A stretch of 64,000 bases of DNA from Haladaptatus sp. ZSTT2 (GTDB taxonomy: Archaea > Halobacteriota > Halobacteria > Halobacteriales > Halococcaceae): contig NZ_JBAMHQ010000001.1 in assembly GCF_037081775.1 (NCBI RefSeq), positions 434,001 to 498,000 on the forward strand. Direction: 5' to 3'. Every line of letters begins with the position of its first letter. The first letter of the stretch is position 1. Of the stretch, positions 13,243 through 22,281 are shown one piece after another. Under the pieces are notes generated by a model that saw only the letters and a list, made by a program, of their open reading frames with translations, made no database searches and was not told the DNA's origin. Position numbers and translations under genes: made by a program.

Positions 13243-15807
13243 CTACCGGAACTTCCCGAACAGCTTGTAGTCGTGGTCGGGCGTGTAGCGCCGGAACGCG
13301 AGACTGTTTGCGAGCACCGAGACGCTCGAAAACGCCATCGCAACCGCCGCGAGCACGGGTTGCAGCAGGCCAAGCGAGGCGAGCGGAATCATCGCGGTGT
13401 TGTAGCCGAGCGCCCAGAACAGGTTCTGCTTGATTTTCTGGAGCGTCCCTTCGGAGATGCGAATCGCCTTGAGTACGTCCGCCGGGTCGTCGCGCATGAG
13501 CGTCACGTCCGCGGCTTCGATGGCCACGTCCGTCCCGCTGCCGAGGGCCGTCCCGACGTAGGCGGCGGCGAGCGCGGGCGCGTCGTTCACGCCGTCACCG
13601 ACCATCATTGCCCTATTGCCCTCAGCTTGAATCGATTCCACCGCGTCGGCTTTGTCCTCGGGAAGCACTTCTGCGCGGACGTTTTCGGGGTCAATGCCGA
13701 CTTGCTCTGCCACCGCGCGGGCGGTGCGCTCGTTGTCACCCGTGATGAGCAACACCGAGAGACCGCGTTCGCGGAGCGCGGTGACGGCCGCAGCCGCATT
13801 CTCCTTGATGGTGTCTGCGGTGGCGACAACGCCGATGAGCGTTCCGTCAAGGGCGACGAGCATTGCGGTTTTCCCCTCGCGTTCGAGGCGTTCTAACGTC
13901 TCTTCTGCTGGCGTAGGGTCGATGCCGTTGTCGGCCATGAGCTTGCGGTTGCCGATGAACACGGTTCCCTGACTCACTTCGGCGCGGACTCCGTGGCCGG
14001 GAACGTTCTCGAACGATTCGGGGGAGTCGAGGTCGAGGTCGCGTTCGCTGGCTCCCGCTACGATGGCTTCAGCGAGCGGGTGCTCGCTGCCGGATTCTGC
14101 GCTTGCGGCGACCGAGAGGACGAAGTCCTCATCACCGAGTTGGGATTGGAGTTGCCCGCCGTCGGCGGAGGTGAGCGCGACGATGTCAGTGAGGCGCATC
14201 TCGCCTTTCGTCAGGGTACCGGTTTTGTCGAAAACGACGGTGTCCACGTCGCGGACGCGCTCTAAGATGTCACCGCCTTTGAACAGCACGCCGTTTCGCG
14301 CGCCAATCGTCGTCCCGACCATCGTGGCCGCGGGCGTGGCGAGGCCGAGGGCGCACGGACAGGCGATGAGGACGGCCGAGGCGAACACGATGACCGCGAA
14401 CTCGAAGACTGAAACGCCTCCGCCCACCACCTGCGGGCCGCCTTCGATGAGCCCCCAGAGCGGCAGGCTCTGGACGAACCCGGCGAGGGCTTCGGGGAAG
14501 GCGAACCAGATGATGCCCCAGAACAGCGCGTTTGCGATGACCGCGGGGACGAAGTAGGCGCTGATGCGGTCTGCGAGGTTCTGAATCTCGGGCTGGCGGC
14601 TCTGGGCATCAGAGACGAGGGCGACGATTTGCTGGATTGCCGTTTCCTCGCCGACTTTCGTGGCTTCCACCACCAGCACGCCGTTTTCGTTGATGGTGGA
14701 GCCAACCACTTCGTCGCCTTCGGCCTTTTCGACCGGGACGGACTCGCCGGTCACCATCGACTCGTCGACCGCGCTCTCACCGGAGACGACGACGCCGTCG
14801 GTCGGGATTTTCTCCCCGGGGCGCACCTTCATCCGGTCGCCGACTTCCACGTCTTCGAGTGGGACTTCACGTTCGTTGCCCGCGTCGTCTACGAGCGTCG
14901 CGGTGTCGGCTTCGAGTTCGAGCAGTTCGCGGAGTGCGTCGCCTGCTTGCCCTTTCGAACGGGCTTCGAGGTAGTTACCGAGTGTGATGAACACGAGGAT
15001 GAACGCGGCAGTGTCGAAATAGACGGCTCCGCCAATGAGCCCGACCAGGACGGCAACAGAGTAGAAGTACGCCGTCGACGAGCCAAGCGCGATGAGCACG
15101 TCCATGTTCGCCGTCCGATTTTTCACGAGCGCGGTGTACGAGTTCTCGTAGAACTCCTTGCCGAGGACGTACTGAACGGGCGTGGCGAAGAGAAAGCCAA
15201 CCCACCCAATCGGGAGGCCGAGGACGGTTTCGGGGAGAATGTTCGGCGCAAAGAGGTGGGCAAGGAGCATCCCGAGAAGCGGGACAGAAAGCACTGCTCC
15301 GAACAGCACCAACTTTCGCTGGCGGTCGATGTCTGCGTGGCGAGCGGCGTCACGGCGCTCGCGCTCTGACCCGGTGTCGCCCGTGTCGCCGCGGACGGGT
15401 GTGTAGCCCGCATCCTCGATGGCATCGTAGAGCTGTGACCGCGTGACCTGCGCCGGGTTGTACTCGACACGAGCCTCGTCAGTGGCGAAATTGGCTTCGA
15501 CGTTGATGACGCCGGGAACCCGCATGAGCGCGTCCTCGTTGGTCGAGGCGCAGTTGGCACACGTCATGTCCGTGATGCCAATCGTAACCGACTCGCGGGC
15601 CGCCTCGTAGCCCGCCTCCTCGATGGCGTCGTAAATTTCCATGAGTTCCACTCGTTCGGGGTCGAACTCGACTGTCCCCTCGTCCGTGGCGTAGTTGATA
15701 CTCGCCTCGGTGACGCCGTCTAGCTTCGTGACGGCCGTTTCGATGGTTTTCGAGCAGTTCGCACAACTCATCCCCGTGATGGCGAACTGAACCCGCTGGG
15801 TAGTCAT
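13243..15807 (-). CDS. copA: Copper-exporting P1B-type ATPase CopA
   Basis: 854-residue heavy-metal P-type ATPase exporting Cu(I) across the cytoplasmic membrane. Two N-terminal HMA domains carry CxxC metal sites (GMSCANC, Cys15/18; DMTCANC, Cys83/86). The membrane metal site CPC is at 483-485 ([12 protein letters not shown]), the phosphorylated Asp527 lies in DKTGTLT, and the hinge [12 protein letters not shown] follows near residue 730. Length fits two-HMA CopA proteins. A TATA-like CTATAG on the minus strand lies about 20 bp before the ATG. A broken HMA chaperone gene is head-to-head upstream, and an Lrp-TRASH regulator is about 2 kb away. Confidence 0.96.
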
Positions 15808-15973
15808 TGAAAACTACTACGCACTATAGCTTGAAGCGGTTTGTCCCTCAGAACTCAATGCAATTCACCCTCAATACATTGGATTCGAAGATGAATTCGA
15901 AATAGCAGACACGAAACTAAACGATCGACTGCGAAGTTCCCCTGAGACAGCAGCCCACATTGGCTCGACACGG

Positions 15974-16069
15974 AATTGCGGGTGGGATGCTGTGGCTGGG
16001 GTCGAAGATGCCGAACTGACTGCGCCTCTCGCCGCGGTCGAGGACGCGGGTTACGAAGCGTCAGCGTAA
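15974..16069 (+). pseudogene. C-terminal remnant of an HMA (CopZ-like) copper chaperone
   Basis: The plus-strand frame ending with TAA at 16067-16069 reads AVAGVEDAELTAPLAAVEDA followed by GYEASA, a close match to the second half of a heavy-metal-associated domain (compare [10 protein letters not shown] at the end of CopA's own first HMA domain). The frame is open from 15830 but has no ATG, and the CxxC metal loop and first strand are missing; the upstream residues (about FEIADTKLNDRL) do not resemble an HMA domain. This is therefore the 3' end of a deleted CopZ-type gene, divergent from copA. Confidence 0.65.
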
Positions 16070-16079
16070 GAAGAGAGAA

Positions 16080-16352
16080 CTACGCGTTTTTGCGAAGGCG
16101 TGTGACGATGAGCGAGATGCCAATCCCGGTGAGCAGGAGAATGATGAGGTTGAACACCGCCTGAAACACCGGTTGGTAGTCGCGGGCCACCCAAATCGAG
16201 ATGATGCGCCCGACGCTGAAGTAAAACTGGAGCGTCGCAATCGCCGCGAGCAGGGCCAGGCCAACGAGCGCACCCCAGTAGAGGTAGGTCGGCAGGTCAT
16301 CTACGGCGGCGGTGCGAACAGCGGTCGTTGGTGATTGGTCTGAGTCACTCAT
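16080..16352 (-). CDS. Small two-TM membrane protein (haloarchaeal, unknown function)
   Basis: 90-residue protein with a polar N-terminus (MSDSDQSPTTAV) and two hydrophobic segments, about residues 25-48 and 63-84, ending in RLRKNA. I do not recognise a function. Its start overlaps the stop of the PGF-CTERM gene by four bases (ATGA), so the two are co-transcribed and perhaps physically linked at the membrane or surface. Confidence 0.7.
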   Translation of the reverse strand: MSDSDQSPTTAVRTAAVDDLPTYLYWGALVGLALLAAIATLQFYFSVGRIISIWVARDYQPVFQAVFNLIILLLTGIGISLIVTRLRKNA

Positions 16353-17350
16353 TTGTGGGTTCCTCGTTTGATTAGCGCGAGCGTTGCGATGGCCACGAGC
16401 GTGGCGAGAATGCCGAAGCCGGGGCCGGATTCTTCGGTTGTCGTGCCGGTTTCTGGTGCGTTCGGCCCGGACGGCGAGTCGGTTACGAAATCACCCGATT
16501 GAAGGCCCGTATCGCGTTGGGTCGTGTTCACGGACACCGTCTCGTTCGGATTCAAATTCGCCACCGAGCGGGTGTTGCCAACGATGACGCCGTCTTTCCA
16601 GAGCGTTGCGTCTAAGTAGTAGTTGTAGCCATCTGGAACGTCGAGAGTGACAGTCGGTTTCGCGGTGCGGCCGGGAGCGATTTCACCGACTTGCACGGAC
16701 GCTTCGTCGGCGACGATGTTCGAATCTGCCTGTCGCGCCGTCACGACCAGCCGGAGGTCGTCGTCCGCCGCGTCGCCAGTGTTCGTCAGGTACGTAGAAA
16801 CGTTGAGCGTCGCGCGGTTCTCGGAGACTGCCTGAATGCGGTATTCGAGCGACGGACGGTCTGGGAACTCGTGGAACTGCGTTGCGGTGCGGGCGTAGGC
16901 GGGCGTCAGCGTCTCGACGCCGCGAATCTCCTTCGTGCCGCGTTCGATACGTCGGTCGTTGACGTAGGCGATGGACTCGATACGGTAGCCGCCGTTTCGT
17001 GCGACGGTGAGCGAGCCAACTGCAGAGACCTCCTTTTCTGACTCGATAGTGCCGACATCGAGCGTGGTTTCCGTTTCGACGAGTCCCGTATCGAGGTCGA
17101 TGGCGCGCAACAGGATGGTCACGTTGTCGGAGGGGCCACCGCGGTGGCTGAGGCGGGTATCAACCGAAAGGGTGGCTGAGCCGCCGGTGACGTTGGTGGA
17201 GGTAATCGTCATCTCTTCTAAGCCGAGACGGCCCGCAGGTTCCCGGTCTAGCTCCGGGTCTGCGAGTGTTCCGGGGACGAAAAATGCCGTGAGCGCGGCG
17301 ACGATAACGAGAATCCCCACGCCTCCGGCGAGCAGGACTTCCTTTCGCAT
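16349..17350 (-). CDS. PGF-CTERM surface protein, two repeated beta domains
   Basis: 333-residue exported protein. An N-terminal hydrophobic segment (VLLAGGVGILVIVAALTAFF) acts as signal/anchor. Two similar beta-rich domains of about 130 residues follow, each with vector-like phrases (VTILLRAIDLDTGLVETE and DDLRLVVTARQADSNIVADE; YRIESIAYVNDR and YYLDATLWKDGV), which suggests internal duplication. A Thr/Glu/Pro-rich linker and GPGFGILATLVAIATLALIK plus basic tail match the PGF-CTERM signal processed by archaeosortase A. Likely a lipid-anchored cell-surface protein of unknown ligand. It is the first gene of a two-gene operon. Confidence 0.78.
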   Translation of the reverse strand: MRKEVLLAGGVGILVIVAALTAFFVPGTLADPELDREPAGRLGLEEMTITSTNVTGGSATLSVDTRLSHRGGPSDNVTILLRAIDLDTGLVETETTLDVGTIESEKEVSAVGSLTVARNGGYRIESIAYVNDRRIERGTKEIRGVETLTPAYARTATQFHEFPDRPSLEYRIQAVSENRATLNVSTYLTNTGDAADDDLRLVVTARQADSNIVADEASVQVGEIAPGRTAKPTVTLDVPDGYNYYLDATLWKDGVIVGNTRSVANLNPNETVSVNTTQRDTGLQSGDFVTDSPSGPNAPETGTTTEESGPGFGILATLVAIATLALIKRGTHK

Positions 17351-17407
17351 ACGGAACGCTCAAGCAATTAACACATAAGCTTTGTGTGGATGACAGCTTT
17401 GGGTGGT

Positions 17408-17998
17408 TCAGACGCCCTGTTTCAGTTCCTCGTAGCGGTCGGTAAAGCGCGCCTCACACGATGAGCAACAGAAATGGTAGCGATCGCCGTCGAGGACGAC
17501 GGACGTTCCTTCGGCAGTGACCGTGTTGCCACACTCTGCACACTCGGGGGCGAAGGCGGCCTCGCCAACGGCGGGTTGCCACGACACGTCAGAAAGGAGG
17601 TCTACTGAGTACGATTGGATGTCGTCAAGAGCGATGGCCTCAGCGAGCAGTGCTTCGACGTTCGTCTCACCGAGGTGGCCCTGGAAGACGACGTGCCCCT
17701 CGGCGGTCGTGAACACGTGTTCGACACCATCGATGCCGAGCACGCCGGATTTGACGCGCTCTGTGGCTCCGGTCCTGACGCTGAGGTCAACCAGCATCGG
17801 AAGCCCCTCGCTGAGCCGCGAGCGGTCGAGTGAGACGGTGAAGCGTTTGATGAGGCCGAGGTCTTGGAGTCGCTCGACGCGGTCAGCAACCGTTGGCGGA
17901 GAGCGGTCTACCTCTTCTGCGATATCGCTGTAGGGGCGGCGGGCGTCTTCGACCAGCAGGCGCAAAATCGTGCGGTCGATGTCGTCGAGCGAGGTCAT
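17408..17998 (-). CDS. Lrp/AsnC-type regulator with C-terminal TRASH metal-sensing domain
   Basis: 196-residue regulator. Residues 1-55 are an AsnC-type winged helix (DDIDRTILRLLVEDARRPYS); about 60-140 is a ligand-binding RAM-like domain; the C-terminus is a TRASH zinc-knuckle-like metal domain with Cys153, Cys156, Cys177, Cys178 and Cys181 (ECAECG, HFCCSSCE). Lrp-TRASH proteins are known in Halobacterium as copper sensors that control CopA-type exporters. Its place between copA and the cupredoxin/oxidase operon fits that role. It starts 41 bp after the halocyanin stop and could have its own promoter or be read from the upstream operon. Confidence 0.9.
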   Translation of the reverse strand: MTSLDDIDRTILRLLVEDARRPYSDIAEEVDRSPPTVADRVERLQDLGLIKRFTVSLDRSRLSEGLPMLVDLSVRTGATERVKSGVLGIDGVEHVFTTAEGHVVFQGHLGETNVEALLAEAIALDDIQSYSVDLLSDVSWQPAVGEAAFAPECAECGNTVTAEGTSVVLDGDRYHFCCSSCEARFTDRYEELKQGV

Positions 17999-18039: not shown

Positions 18040-18444
18040 TTATTCGACCGAAATCGTCCCTTTCATTCCCGTGCCCTCGTGGGGGATACAGAAGTAGTCG
18101 TACCGACCCGGCACCTCGAAGGTGTGGGTGTACGTGTCGCCGGGTTCGATGAGGCCGCCGTTTACGTCTTTGCGCGCGGCCGTTTCGCTCTCGAAATCGC
18201 CGCTTGCGAAGTAGGCGGCGTCGTCCGGAATTTTCTGTTCGTAGGCCGTGACGGTGTGTCCGACTTCGCTGTCGTTGTCGAAGGTGACGGTCGTTCCTGC
18301 ATCCACGGTGAGCGTTTTCGGGGTGAATTTGAAGTCTTTCATCCCGACGGTGTCGCCACCGGTTTCACTCCCGCTGCCGGTACACCCGGCGAGGGCAGTG
18401 GCAACCGTTGCGCCTGCGATCGTGAGGAAGTCGCGCCGTTCCAT
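18040..18444 (-). CDS. Halocyanin-type blue copper lipoprotein
   Basis: 134-residue type 1 copper protein. The N-terminus MERRDFLTIAGATVATALAG plus Cys21 is a Tat-type lipoprotein signal. The cupredoxin core has the four copper ligands His63 (VGHTVTAY), Cys119, His122 and Met127 (YFCIPHEGTGM). It would carry electrons at the outer face of the membrane. It starts 3 bp after the ZIP gene ends, so it is the last member of the dtxR-oxidase-ZIP operon and a natural electron acceptor or copper partner for the oxidase. Confidence 0.93.
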   Translation of the reverse strand: MERRDFLTIAGATVATALAGCTGSGSETGGDTVGMKDFKFTPKTLTVDAGTTVTFDNDSEVGHTVTAYEQKIPDDAAYFASGDFESETAARKDVNGGLIEPGDTYTHTFEVPGRYDYFCIPHEGTGMKGTISVE

Positions 18445-18447
18445 CTA

Positions 18448-19659
18448 TTAGAGCACCACCAGCAAGTCAGTCGCATACATAACTACGAGTCCCGCGAGGA
18501 ACCCGAGCAAGTTAAGCGAACTGCCTAGCTGGCCGTTGCGCGAAATGAGGCCGCCAATCTCCCAGACGACCTGCAGGATTGCGCCCACGCCTATGGCGAG
18601 GAACAGCGCCCCGAGCGTTGGCGAGAAGGCGAAACTGCCAATCCAACCGCCGAAGATGACGGGGATGCCAGCGAGTGCGCCCATCGCCATGAAGTGCCCG
18701 AGCGATGGCCGCGACCCGCGCGTCACGGGGGCGACGACTGCGGGGCCTTCGGTCACGTTGTGGAGCATGAAGCCAACCACGAGGAAAGCGCCGAGCGAGA
18801 CCCGCCCGATTGCGAACGCGCTCCCGATTGCGAGGCCTTCTGCGAGGTTGTGCAGGCCAATGCCGAGCGCGACCATGTAGGCAATCCAGAGCCCAGACGG
18901 CGTGCCCGTGCCCGAGGACTTCCACTTCGTCACCGCTTGGACGATGAGGAGCGCGCCGAGGATGCCGAGGACGACGAGGAGTTGCCCCTCGAACGCCCCG
19001 GGAACCTGCTCTGCTATCTCGAATGCCTCGAAGCCCGCGTCGAACGCGAGGAAGACGAGAATCCCCACCGAGAAGGCGAGGATAGCGTGGAGCGCCCGGT
19101 CGCTCATCGACTGCATGAACGGGAACCAGAGCATGCCGAGTGCGACAGGGATGACCCCGACGAACAGGCCGATGATGGCGAGCGTCCAGAGGACGTCACC
19201 GCTCACGCCCGGACTCTGTTCGGGAGCGACGATGGTGTGGTGGATGGTCGTCCCGTCGTTCAAGACGAGCGCTGTTTCCAAGTCCCAACCGGGATTCCAG
19301 TGGTACGGTATCACCACTTGCGCAGATTCGCGTGCCCCGATAGTCCGCACTTCTTCGCCACCTTGCATCACCTGATGATTCCAGTAGGCGTCACCGACGA
19401 GCACCTGCGAGATGGTCACGTCCTCAGGACCGTTGTTCACCACGTGTAACACGATGGTGTCGTCGTTCGGAATCGTGTGATGGGTGACGGTTACGTCGGG
19501 AAGCGGCGCGCCGGAGCCTTGGAGGCCCGCGAACGGCGTCGCCACGAAGAAGCCCGCGATGACGAGTGCGAGCAGTGCAATCGGGAGGATTGCAGCTACC
19601 CAGCGTGGCAGGCCAAACGGCTTGTTGACGGTGTTGGTTCCACCGTCGCTTCTCGCCAT
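18448..19659 (-). CDS. ZIP-family metal transporter with an N-terminal extracytoplasmic beta domain
   Basis: 403-residue membrane protein. TM1 (about 20-42) is followed by about 110 residues outside the membrane that look like a small beta-sandwich (DVTVTHHTIPNDDTIVLHVV to ALVLNDGTTIHHTI), rich in His (60, 61, 72, 95, 120, 140, 141). From about residue 155 a ZIP transporter follows, with metal-site motifs LHNLAEG (His270, Glu274) and LHNVTEG (His300, Glu304). ZIPs import Zn, Fe or Mn. The extra domain is not part of ordinary ZIPs and could receive metal from the adjacent oxidase. It abuts the oxidase gene directly. Confidence 0.88.
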   Translation of the reverse strand: MARSDGGTNTVNKPFGLPRWVAAILPIALLALVIAGFFVATPFAGLQGSGAPLPDVTVTHHTIPNDDTIVLHVVNNGPEDVTISQVLVGDAYWNHQVMQGGEEVRTIGARESAQVVIPYHWNPGWDLETALVLNDGTTIHHTIVAPEQSPGVSGDVLWTLAIIGLFVGVIPVALGMLWFPFMQSMSDRALHAILAFSVGILVFLAFDAGFEAFEIAEQVPGAFEGQLLVVLGILGALLIVQAVTKWKSSGTGTPSGLWIAYMVALGIGLHNLAEGLAIGSAFAIGRVSLGAFLVVGFMLHNVTEGPAVVAPVTRGSRPSLGHFMAMGALAGIPVIFGGWIGSFAFSPTLGALFLAIGVGAILQVVWEIGGLISRNGQLGSSLNLLGFLAGLVVMYATDLLVVL

Positions 19660-20919
19660 TTAGACCACCTCGAAGAAGCTCATCCAACCAAGTTCAGCGA
19701 ACTCAGACTGGTGGGCGTGGAACATGTACAAGCCGGGTTCGTGGTCCGAGTAGTCGATTTCCAGAATCCCGCGCTGTGCCTGACACTGCATCACCGTGTC
19801 CACCGTCTTCAGGGTGGGCGTGAGCATCGTCCCGTGGTCGTAGTAGTCGAAGAAGTTCGAGTGGGTGTGGAACGAGTTGATGGCGTCGAACTCGATGGCG
19901 TTTACGAGGTAGACGCGCTGGAGCTGTTGGCCATCGACCTGAATCGGGCGCTTCGTTTCGCCCGGCTCCCAGTTCCCCTTCCCGTCGGTATCGCCAACGC
20001 CGTAGGCGAACGCGCGGGTGTTCGCGGCGTACACCTCGTTGTCGCCGTCGAAGTTGGTGTCGAAGCCGTTCATGACCATCACCATCTCGTTTACGTCTTC
20101 GCCTTCATCGTACTCGTGATTCCGGCTTTCTGCTTTCGTGACGAGTTGGGAAACGAGGTCGTCGGTCATCGGCCCGTCGTAGTTGATGTAATCGCGTGGA
20201 TTTTCCCGCACCCGTTCTGGGTCGGGGTCAACGATGATGACGCCGTAGAGGCCCCGGTGGATGTGCTCTTTGAGCGGCAGTGAGTGGCAGTGGTAAAACT
20301 GCACGCCACACGGCTGGGCTTTCCAGCGGTAGGTGTACGATTCGCCCGTGTCGAGGACACCCGGTCCGTTCGTGGGGATGCCGTCCATCGCCGGATTGAT
20401 GTTCTTTACGTGTGGGTGGATGGTGTGGGCGTGGCGGCCAAGGTTCGTGAACTCAACTTCGATGATGTCGCCTTCCGTGACGCGAAGCGTCGGTCCCGGA
20501 ACCTGTCCGTTGTAGGACCACGCGGAGAACGTGATACCGGGGGCGATTTCGATTTCGATGTCCACGGCGTTCAACTCGAAGCGACGAATCCGCTGGTCAC
20601 CCTCCATGTAGACCTCTTGGGTGACGTTCTCCTGTCCATCGTAGCCTGTGTTGAACTGATAGAGGTATTCGTGGGGGTCAAACTGGTTGCCCGAATACTC
20701 GCCAACGGCGCCGAAATTCCCGTGGTGACTGTCGCCACCACCGTGGTCGCCGTCTGCTGACGCGCCACCGCTGAACCCGGCGATACCCGCCGCACCGGCG
20801 AGTCCGAGTCCGCCGAGAACCGTCCGTCTATCAATCGATTCACCCTTGAGCGCGCCAACGAGGCGTTCTTCTAACGTCTTCGTCATCGCACCCGCCGTCT
20901 TGTAGTCGTGGGATGGCAT
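19660..20919 (-). CDS. Two-domain multicopper oxidase, Tat-exported
   Basis: 419-residue secreted multicopper oxidase. A Tat signal (IDRRTVLGGLGLAGAAGIAG) begins near residue 29. Domain 1 has HAHTIHPH (His163, 165, 168, 170) and FYHCHSLPLKEHIHRG with Cys211 as the type 1 copper ligand; domain 2 has FHTHS (His351, 353) and FHAHQSEFAELGWM (His401, 403) without a Cys. Type 1 copper in domain 1 only corresponds to a type C two-domain oxidase. It could oxidise Fe(II), Mn(II), Cu(I) or organic substrates. A start 11 codons later (MTKTLEER) is equally plausible. Confidence 0.93.
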   Translation of the reverse strand: MPSHDYKTAGAMTKTLEERLVGALKGESIDRRTVLGGLGLAGAAGIAGFSGGASADGDHGGGDSHHGNFGAVGEYSGNQFDPHEYLYQFNTGYDGQENVTQEVYMEGDQRIRRFELNAVDIEIEIAPGITFSAWSYNGQVPGPTLRVTEGDIIEVEFTNLGRHAHTIHPHVKNINPAMDGIPTNGPGVLDTGESYTYRWKAQPCGVQFYHCHSLPLKEHIHRGLYGVIIVDPDPERVRENPRDYINYDGPMTDDLVSQLVTKAESRNHEYDEGEDVNEMVMVMNGFDTNFDGDNEVYAANTRAFAYGVGDTDGKGNWEPGETKRPIQVDGQQLQRVYLVNAIEFDAINSFHTHSNFFDYYDHGTMLTPTLKTVDTVMQCQAQRGILEIDYSDHEPGLYMFHAHQSEFAELGWMSFFEVV

Positions 20920-21612
20920 TCACGCCACCTCGGTTGCACTTTCTGACATTGAATCACGGTCACTGACGCGGATGACGTCCGCGATGCGCTCTGAGAGCGC
21001 GACTTCGTCGCCGTCGGGGAGGCGAACCGTCACCAGTCCGATTGGCGCGACTTCGACCACATCGACCGGCGTGCCGGGCAGAATCCCGGCGTCTGCGAGA
21101 TATTCCAACTCGGCGGCGTTCCCGTCGCGCACTCGTTTGATGACGACGGAGTCACCAGCTTCCCGCTCCGACAGCGCGGTGCCCATGATGTCCTCGATTG
21201 GGTCGAGATTCGCGTTCGGAATGGGCGCACCGTGGGGGTCGACCGTCGGGTTGTCGAGCATCTCGGCAACCCGGCGCTCGAACTCCTCGCTGATGTGGTG
21301 TTCTAAGCGGTCGGCTTCGTTGTGGACTTCCGCCCAGTCGTAGCCGAGGTGTTCTGCAAGGTACGTTTCGAGCAGGCGGTGGTGGCGGAGCACTTCGAGG
21401 GCGACCGTCTCGCCTTCTGGGGTGAGGCGGACGCCTTTGTACTCCTCACGTTCGACGAGCTCGCGCGTCTCAAGCTTCTTTGCCATGCTCGTGACCGTGG
21501 GCGGTTTGACACCCAGAGCCTCTGCAATCGCGGAGGTTGAGATGGGGCCATCGGTCTCCCGCTGGAGACTGTAGATGACCTTTAGATAATCCTCCATTTT
21601 GGCGCTCAACAT
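20920..21612 (-). CDS. DtxR/MntR-family metal-dependent repressor
   Basis: 230-residue regulator. Winged helix at residues 1-60 (MEDYLKVIYSLQRE, then TVTSMAKKLETRELV), dimerisation/metal-binding helices at about 70-140 (HHRLLETYLAEHLGY, HNEADRLEHHISEEFERRV) with His and Glu ligands, and a C-terminal SH3-like FeoA domain (about 150-220). It senses Fe(II) or Mn(II) and represses metal uptake in other organisms. It is the first gene of the operon with the multicopper oxidase, the stop and next start being immediately adjacent. A palindrome 8 bp before its start suggests autoregulation. Confidence 0.95.
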   Translation of the reverse strand: MLSAKMEDYLKVIYSLQRETDGPISTSAIAEALGVKPPTVTSMAKKLETRELVEREEYKGVRLTPEGETVALEVLRHHRLLETYLAEHLGYDWAEVHNEADRLEHHISEEFERRVAEMLDNPTVDPHGAPIPNANLDPIEDIMGTALSEREAGDSVVIKRVRDGNAAELEYLADAGILPGTPVDVVEVAPIGLVTVRLPDGDEVALSERIADVIRVSDRDSMSESATEVA

Positions 21613-21619
21613 AGGTTGG

Positions 21620-21635
21620 TTTAGATGCGTCTAAA
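21620..21635. promoter_or_regulatory. DtxR-type palindromic operator
   Basis: TTTAGA (21620-21625) TGCG TCTAAA (21630-21635) is a perfect 6-4-6 palindrome 8 bp before the dtxR start codon. The half-site recurs nearby as GTTTAGTTC (21662-21670). TTTAG-N6-CTAAA sites resemble the known style of DtxR/SirR operators in archaea. Binding here would control the four-gene operon dtxR, oxidase, ZIP and halocyanin. Confidence 0.6.
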
Positions 21636-21714
21636 CTAAATATGTGTCGGAGGTATATTGAGTTTAGTTCAGAATTTCAATGTAGAGAACAAGAGTGAAA
21701 CTCGAAATCTGTGC

Positions 21715-22281
21715 CTACCGGCCCATCGTGTGGAACTCGTCGTTCGGGCGCATATCTGCGAAATGTGCCATCCGATTCGAGAGGTTGAAAAACGCCGTGA
21801 CGCTCCCGATGTCCCAGATAGCCTTCTCAGAAAATCCGGCGTCGCGGAGTTTTTCGAAATCGGTTTCGTCGATTTCGGCCTGTCGCTCGGTGAGCTTCAC
21901 CGCCACGTCGAGCATGGCCATATGCTTGTCCGAAATCTCTGCGTTGCGATAGTTCGAGGCGACTTGGTCTGCGAGGAGGGGTTGGTCGCTGAACAGCCGC
22001 AACAGAGCGCCGTGGGCGACGATGCAGTAGTAACAATCGTTCGCGCCGCTCGCGGCGACGATTATCATCTCAATCTCTTCGCGGGTGAGGTCGGTGTCAG
22101 AAACGAGCGCGTCGTAGTAGGCGAAAAACGCCCGGAAGTGCGATGGGCGGTAGGCGTAGGCCATGAACACGTTCGGCGTGAAACCGGCCTTCTCGGTCTC
22201 TTCTTCGATGCGCTCTCTGAGGTCTGCTGGCAAGTCATCGAGATCGGGCACCGGAAACCGCGTCATGGGTTCTTGTGGCAT
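21715..22281 (-). CDS. Peroxidase-related AhpD/CMD-family protein
   Basis: 188-residue protein of the carboxymuconolactone decarboxylase/AhpD superfamily. The redox motif is Cys83-Tyr-Tyr-Cys86 with the following His90 (ANDCYYCIVAHGALLR), matching AhpD-type thiol peroxidase partners. The C-terminal AFFNLSNRMAHFADMRPNDEF is typical of the peroxidase-related subgroup. It is cytoplasmic and likely acts in peroxide or organic hydroperoxide defence. It lies next to the metal operon but is separated by that operon's promoter. A start at MTRFPVP, five codons in, is also possible. Confidence 0.88.
   Translation of the reverse strand: MPQEPMTRFPVPDLDDLPADLRERIEEETEKAGFTPNVFMAYAYRPSHFRAFFAYYDALVSDTDLTREEIEMIIVAASGANDCYYCIVAHGALLRLFSDQPLLADQVASNYRNAEISDKHMAMLDVAVKLTERQAEIDETDFEKLRDAGFSEKAIWDIGSVTAFFNLSNRMAHFADMRPNDEFHTMGR

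Follow-up and report, generated by a model that had tools for sequence, protein, structure and literature searches.

Multicopper oxidase and ZIP transporter genes recur together, mostly beside or under manganese-sensing-type switch sequences: probably a little-known manganese acquisition route

A 64,000-nucleotide stretch of the genome of Haladaptatus sp. ZSTT2 (the window, whose coordinates are used for the operon) carries four adjoining minus-strand genes—dtxR, a multicopper oxidase (MCO) gene, a ZIP transporter gene and a halocyanin gene—with intergenic gaps of 0, 0 and 3 bp, preceded by a palindromic operator (Table 1). An earlier reading of the sequence (the original prediction) had described four abutting genes forming an operon, in which a two-domain MCO of type C and a ZIP bearing an additional outer domain would provide a metal uptake route. 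The gaps are borne out by the open reading frame (ORF) coordinates, and the operon, both protein descriptions and the uptake route are all supported by our analysis. We find that the MCO-ZIP pair recurs, mostly beside or under switch sequences of manganese-sensing type, and that it is probably a little-known manganese acquisition route. The evidence is comparative throughout, with ORF starts in other genomes assigned automatically.

Table 1: Features of the dtxR-MCO-ZIP-halocyanin locus, in window coordinates.
Feature	Position	Strand	Basis or remarks
DtxR/MntR-family metalloregulator, SirR type, 230 amino acids (aa)	20920-21612	-	Winged helix, metal/dimer domain, FeoA-like SH3 domain
Two-domain (type C) MCO, twin-arginine-type exported, 419 aa	19660-20919	-	Pfam Cu-oxidase_3/_2
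ZIP-family divalent metal transporter, 403 aa	18448-19659	-	N-terminal transmembrane (TM) helix and outer domain; BbZIP fold match, metal motifs
ZIP outer domain, residues ~49-150	19210-19515	-	Confined to ZIPs adjoining this MCO
Halocyanin/plastocyanin-type blue copper protein, twin-arginine (Tat)/lipoprotein-like leader, accessory	18040-18444	-	Pfam Copper-bind E 5e-19; NCBIfam plastocyanin/halocyanin/TAT
Operator palindrome GTTTAGATGCGTCTAAAC	21619-21636	.	Sequence; kept in related loci
Putative TATA-like element ATATTTA, directly 5' of operator	21637-21643	-	Sequence reading

In the Protein Data Bank (PDB), the oxidase matched the MCOs 7rab (E 1.7e-107 over residues 50-419) and 3gdc (E 9e-71); homology to 7rab was used in place of an AlphaFold model, which was discarded (pLDDT 49, over-similar alignment). 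The entry 7rab is given as a dodecameric protein of M. hydrothermalis, which we take to be Marinithermus hydrothermalis. Judging from NirK spacing, the type 1 (T1) copper ligands in domain 1 would be H165, C211, H219 and an axial L224 (Met in six of 33). Among 33 archaeal and bacterial members, the eight histidines of the trinuclear site (168, 170, 210, 212, 351, 353, 401 and 403, in four HxH/HCH pairs) are invariant, as are E278, D374, R383 and E406; H165 is kept in 32 and H221 in 30. The T1 cysteine is found in domain 1 only (C211, within HCH) and domain 2 has HAH without Cys, which is the type C arrangement; a trimer with an intersubunit trinuclear site, also typical of this type, would be expected from homology to 7rab and 3gdc. 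The N-terminus forms a twin-arginine-like leader.

The transporter is divergent by sequence model, its Pfam ZIP match (E 2e-5, 24.3 bits) falling below the curated cut-off of 35.1. We nevertheless call it a ZIP because its AlphaFold model (mean pLDDT 82) matches the BbZIP fold (Foldseek against 5tsa, E 3.8e-7, TM-score 0.68 by target). Its metal motifs, H270-N271-E274 and H300-N301-E304 (HNxxEG-type, in TM4/TM5), are invariant or nearly so, and family matches were to ZIP/ZupT only, not to Ftr1/EfeU. The outer domain is modelled as an extracytoplasmic beta-sandwich of ~100 residues. Copper binding by this domain was considered and set aside: Foldseek matches to PCuAC chaperones and FlaG/FlaF were weak and non-diagnostic, and no conserved Met/His set was visible in the outer-domain alignment.

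Independent searches of 294 haloarchaeal genomes recovered a full-length MCO orthologue (57-95% identity) in 39 and the outer-domain ZIP in exactly those 39 with an intact MCO. About 40 further genomes (a count taken from BLAST tables, not curated annotation) encode a ZIP of the same subfamily, with 40-48% identity over residues ~151-400, that is ~310 aa long and lacks the outer domain; L129 is an example in the alignment. Since the outer-domain ZIP occurs only where the MCO is intact, and the ~40 further genomes have the short ZIP, outer domain and MCO travel together. One genome (G279, L043:5906-7960) has an MCO gene cut after ~234 codons by a TnpB-like transposon gene in the same frame, giving a 684-aa ORF; no ZIP was found near this interrupted copy.

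A DtxR-family gene stands next to the MCO in 18 of 40 haloarchaeal loci, plus one fragment, and halocyanin lies downstream of the ZIP in ~30 of 38 assessable loci (again counted from BLAST tables). MCO and ZIP make up the conserved core, to which DtxR (in about half) and halocyanin (in about three quarters of the haloarchaeal loci) are optional additions. The original prediction had staked itself on a conserved neighbourhood, which holds for MCO-ZIP; conservation of all four genes as one operon was rejected, leaving MCO-ZIP alone as a near-obligate pair. An essential role for halocyanin is not supported, the gene being absent from 8 of the ~38 haloarchaeal loci and from bacterial loci.

The pairing extends across phyla. 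The 80 best MCO relatives in the genome collection, all of which were read, come from Haloarchaea, Chloroflexota, Bacteroidota and Pseudomonadota; haloarchaeal loci are partly shared with the 294-genome sample, so counts overlap. The ZIP is directly downstream of the MCO in 79 of these loci, and the contig of the 80th ends 53 bp past the MCO. Many of the bacteria show a 4-bp start/stop overlap between the MCO and ZIP genes. Annotated plasmids extend the list of phyla to Actinomycetota, Cyanobacteriota, Deinococcota and Bacillota, whereas viral contigs, when scanned, yielded no MCO relatives. Besides halocyanin, the slot after the ZIP may hold cytochrome c (one Chloroflexota locus, L181) or Rieske proteins (Gloeocapsa, Rhodococcus, Rubrobacter), and this series of unrelated small redox proteins hints that electron transfer is part of the system.

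The core palindrome TTTAGA-TGCG-TCTAAA (TTTAGATGCGTCTAAA, 21620-21635) is perfect, as originally predicted, and one more pair makes it an 18-bp perfect repeat; it lies 7 bases ahead of the dtxR ATG, not 8 as had been stated. The strict pattern TTAGA-N4-TCTAA has only three sites in the 3.23-Mb genome. In the 40 related haloarchaeal loci, the 10 kb preceding MCO/dtxR starts hold 47 TTAG-N6-CTAA sites and the remaining 557 kb three, a density ~870 times that elsewhere; 36 of the 40 loci, some of them without a nearby dtxR, have the operator ahead of MCO and/or dtxR. Across 26 MCO-bearing genomes there are 65 TTAGA-N4-TCTAA sites against 12 for a reversed control pattern. On this distribution, far above chance, we regard the palindrome as a real operator that defines a predicted regulon, and its recurrence before dtxR and MCO in related loci supports the claim of DtxR control through it. 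The putative TATA-like element abuts the operator on its 5' side, which would place the operator between promoter element and start codon, in the position of a repressor site.

Away from the MCO we counted 42 operator sites in these genomes. Fourteen lie just upstream of dtxR orthologues (54-64% identical), 12 precede a ZnuA-type (ZnuA/Mnt-type) substrate-binding protein and ATPase, five precede PF11449 transporters, one a GDT1-family transporter, and one lies between doxX and a DUF7471-HTH pair; no recognised target followed the remaining nine. The window genome and one further genome also show the permease of the ZnuA-type ABC importer. Targets were identical in a class-wide haloarchaeal sample including MCO-free genomes. 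Comparison of coordinates shows short ZIPs, without the outer domain, starting ~200 bp past operator sites in four genomes (G020, G032, G045 and G052), and L129 has a dtxR-ZIP pair behind such a site. The operator is common to genes of apparent manganese homeostasis (dtxR, the ZnuA/Mnt-type ABC importer, PF11449 and GDT1), their metal specificity being assigned by family.

Some of these targets carry observations of their own. The third operator site of the window genome (C1 ~1,545,000; L076:4065-5753) is flanked by doxX and a DUF7471-HTH gene pair. Such a DUF7471-HTH pair directly follows MCO-ZIP-halocyanin on haloarchaeal contigs L134-L136, L165 and L178, and in Rubrobacter (L221) the gene after MCO-ZIP is a DoxX gene. 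PF11449 genes with the Mn-type operator occur in L094, L101, L112, L118, L130, L245 and L250-L252, which suggests that, of the library labels for this family ('10TM heavy-metal exporter' and, in NCBIfam, 'arsenic efflux'), the arsenic label is wrong for the operator-bearing group.

A second operator type, TTAGG-N4-CCTAA, has 13 sites in the window genome and stands, among other places, before iron/siderophore-type genes (Peripla_BP_2, FecCD and further solute-binding ones). It is often duplicated 36 bp apart (C1:716654/716690, C2:81546/81582, C2:108765/108801). As iron-type importers use this pattern rather than TTAGA-N4-TCTAA, the fifth base would separate the two specificities.

The regulator itself matches PF01325 (Fe_dep_repress), PF02742 (Fe_dep_repr_C) and PF04023 (FeoA) above the Pfam cut-offs, and its closest PDB relatives are 8pvt, 5zr4, SloR and ScaR. 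Alignment gives its ligand residues as D8, D101, E104 and H105; at the D8 and D101 positions IdeR has M10 and C102, and SloR and ScaR have Asp/Glu. These two positions govern manganese versus iron response in MntR/DtxR proteins. With Asp at the MntR D8 position and an acidic residue at that of IdeR C102, the window protein has ligands of predicted Mn type, and neither of the other two DtxR-family homologues found in the genome has the full set. A precedent exists in Halobacterium, where SirR represses its own gene in a Mn(II)-dependent manner and the manganese importer genes zurM-zurA-ycdH go up in a SirR deletion strain (Kaur 2006, as reviewed in PMC3600143).

Comparable switches accompany the pair in bacteria. 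Upstream of the MCO, sites include TTTAGATACGTCTAAA, TTTAGACATATCTAAA, TTTAGTTATATCTAAA and others in Chloroflexota, TTTAGCCTTGGCTAAA and TTTAGTCTTGGCTAAA in Bacteroidota, and ATTAGCTATTGCTAAT in Aquisalimonas; two Chloroflexota with an adjoining DtxR-FeoA protein have operator-like sites before dtxR. On alphaproteobacterial plasmids of Sulfitobacter, two Sinorhizobium and Shinella, an annotated mntR is divergent from MCO-ZIP, and the mntR/MCO intergenic regions hold TAG-N6-CTA palindromes such as ATTATAGCACTTGCTATAAT, which resembles the E. coli MntR box. One alphaproteobacterial metagenome-assembled genome (MAG) has a DtxR-family gene immediately after the ZIP. Divergent DtxR-family genes also stand beside MCO-ZIP in Rubrobacter and in Arthrobacter FB24, on whose plasmid the MCO gene, which we take to be the one solved as 3gdc, lies between regulator and ZIP; in Deinococcus sp. 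D7000 a Nramp-DtxR pair is divergent from MCO-ZIP. An Rfam search of twelve bacterial loci found one Mn2+ riboswitch (yybP-ykoY; Halomonas, L198:9318-9485), upstream of mntP and ~0.5 kb past the MCO-ZIP pair, and none on MCO-ZIP itself.

Taken together, the regulator residues, the SirR precedent, the bacterial mntR-MCO-ZIP clusters and the Nramp neighbour point to manganese over iron. Of the two metals originally proposed, manganese is the likelier signal; iron is made less likely by the Mn-type residues of the regulator and by the separate iron-type operator. Manganese-responsive regulation of the cassette we consider very likely.

Beyond the cassette, the genes directly downstream are those for an Lrp-type regulator with a TRASH domain (17408-17998, -) and, within the stretch 13243-17998, a P-type ATPase with HMA domains (13243-15807, -); the two resemble the published copper-responsive VNG1197C/yvgX pair of Halobacterium. 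Upstream of dtxR lies a carboxymuconolactone-decarboxylase-family gene (21715-22281, -), likewise found before dtxR-MCO-ZIP in the MAGs L166, L168, L169 and L170.

Gene order, cross-phylum pairing, conservation and co-targets of the operator, and Mn-type regulator residues are all supported by the computation. On balance we favour, with modest confidence, a metal import module induced by manganese starvation, with the secreted two-domain MCO and the outer-domain ZIP as its core. With Mn(II) in adequate supply, the SirR/MntR-type DtxR would sit on TTTAGA-N4-TCTAAA and repress its own gene and the cassette; under manganese shortage, the cassette and the ZnuA/Mnt-type ABC importer, which has an identical operator elsewhere, would be expressed. 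The ZIP would then bring Mn(II) into the cell, and manganese is rather likely to be its imported ion. Because the MCO is obligate and the outer domain matches it, the two may be coupled, physically or functionally, outside the membrane, where the MCO, probably docked on the outer domain, would oxidise metal ions. Of the possible uses, the likeliest to us is oxidation of Fe(II), Cu(I) or both, which might let a promiscuous ZIP take up Mn(II) and not Fe(II); this role as a sieve is put forward tentatively. We know of no ZIP that takes oxidised Mn(III) or Fe(III) as substrate, and therefore favour removal of Fe(II)/Cu(I) over channelling in the manner of yeast Fet3-Ftr1. Halocyanin could serve as an accessory carrier of electrons or copper. 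In its widest form the proposal would be an unrecognised manganese acquisition system shared by Archaea with seven or more bacterial phyla: the oxidase, whose closest solved relative is a closed dodecamer, would dock on the ZIP outer domain, and O2-driven clearance of Fe(II)/Cu(I) would set the imported Mn/Fe ratio; as a whole, this is speculative and on present evidence doubtful.

Published work ties MCOs to iron uptake, copper tolerance and the formation of manganese oxides, not to manganese starvation. An oxidase almost always accompanied by a dedicated ZIP, found across phyla and repeatedly under Mn-type regulators from different lineages, would if confirmed be a new uptake strategy, and would account for many genes now annotated only as 'metal transporter' or 'multicopper oxidase domain-containing'.

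Several observations weigh against manganese import. Neither an adjoining DtxR nor the palindrome was found in Cyanobacteria, Rhodococcus, Sutcliffiella, Microvirga (where a Fur gene is downstream of MCO-ZIP) and several Pseudomonadota copies, some gammaproteobacterial ones included. ZnuA-type ABC importers and ZIPs carry zinc and iron too and, as annotations of the ABC importer are divided between zinc and manganese, zinc may still be involved. Two of the operator targets, PF11449 (labelled heavy-metal/arsenic efflux by the libraries) and GDT1, may be exporters, in which case the regulon would not be purely one of uptake. Several plasmid copies have copper genes as neighbours (P-type ATPase, PCu(A)C, SCO), and by the Halobacterium parallel the genes next to our cassette may themselves be a copper family. 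These neighbours, with halocyanin, would suit copper acquisition as proposed for ammonia-oxidising archaea, the MCO turning Cu(I) into Cu(II) for import by the ZIP; in Nitrososphaera viennensis, copper limitation moderately raises MCO1 and the permease next to it (PMC7785015). However, a DtxR/MntR regulator and operator of Mn/Fe-sensing type occur in several lineages, the operator being common to ABC importers, dtxR and same-family ZIPs, and an enzyme with four coppers per subunit is an odd tool under copper starvation; we judge copper acquisition unlikely. The analogy originally drawn with Fet3-Ftr1 implies coupled iron uptake, the MCO as ferroxidase and the permease taking the resulting Fe(III). 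Many MCOs are ferroxidases, this one adjoins a permease, and the DtxR family includes iron sensors; but the permease is a ZIP (BbZIP fold), a carrier of divalent rather than freshly oxidised trivalent ions and of another family than Ftr1, the regulator has D8/D101 in place of IdeR M10/C102, and the iron-type importers of the genome are under TTAGG-N4-CCTAA. The analogy was rejected on permease family, and such coupling is most improbable here.

Two further explanations give the oxidase another purpose. It may belong to manganese or mixed-metal detoxification on metal-resistance plasmids, oxidising Mn(II)/Fe(II)/Cu(I) while the ZIP exports or equilibrates ions: many copies are plasmid-borne, one on the heavy-metal plasmid pSinB (PMC6115938), and the operator also precedes PF11449 and GDT1, which may be exporters. 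The importers under the same operator, the mostly importing habit of ZIPs, and an operator between TATA element and start, which suggests repression by metal-loaded regulator, make this the least probable of the readings considered. Or the MCO, fed by halocyanin (cytochrome c or Rieske proteins elsewhere), might be an oxygen-reducing sink that lowers O2/oxidants near the importer so that metals stay divalent. The unrelated carriers filling the slot after the ZIP are consistent with this, as is the NirK-like domain architecture of the MCO, NirK receiving its electrons from cupredoxins. A carrier is nevertheless missing from most bacterial loci and from the same 8 of ~38 haloarchaeal ones, and the conserved acidic/His residues near the copper sites suit a metal substrate equally; an oxygen sink seems to us quite improbable.

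Among known systems, the closest solved relatives of the oxidase are the dodecameric MCO of Marinithermus hydrothermalis (7rab/7rac) and that of Arthrobacter sp. FB24 (3gdc), which to our knowledge have been studied as enzymes only and not within a Mn-regulated MCO-ZIP module. The bacterial MntR regulon (mntH, mntABC, mntP) resembles the present one in regulator family, palindrome type and co-regulated manganese transporters, including the Nramp neighbour in Deinococcus, but no paper that we found describes MCO-ZIP as an MntR target. Yeast Fet3-Ftr1 shares the logic of oxidase plus permease, and Fet3p, like our MCO with L224, has Leu at the T1 axial position; there, however, a three-domain ferroxidase serves an Ftr1-family Fe(III) permease, whereas here a two-domain MCO stands with a ZIP. 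Like Halobacterium salinarum SirR, the window regulator is a DtxR-family protein whose operator precedes both dtxR, as for an autorepressor, and a Mn/Fe- or ZnuA-type ABC importer (orthology being presumed only), but the passages drawn on from PMC3600143 describe no MCO, ZIP or halocyanin among SirR targets.

The original prediction held that no system of this composition had been described. A counterpart of the gene pair is on record in ammonia-oxidising archaea, where the MCO1 gene adjoins a zinc/iron permease gene (N. viennensis NVIE_000600/000590) and a copper uptake role has been proposed (PMC7785015, citing Kerou 2016); the arrangement also appears in PMC11849493. A survey of Haloferax mediterranei names ZIP, halocyanins and MCO separately (PMC9240420), and in the open-access literature we found no paper on MCO-ZIP in haloarchaea or bacteria, or in a manganese regulon. 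The two arrangements share a two-domain MCO next to a ZIP-type permease, an axial Leu at T1 and a proposed role in uptake; they differ in the proposed metal, copper for MCO1, and in that the passages of PMC7785015 report no DtxR/MntR link. The pair thus has a described counterpart, while the manganese regulon, the breadth, the outer domain and the probable metal appear undescribed and, should manganese import hold, would bear on the MCO1 puzzle of ammonia-oxidising archaea.

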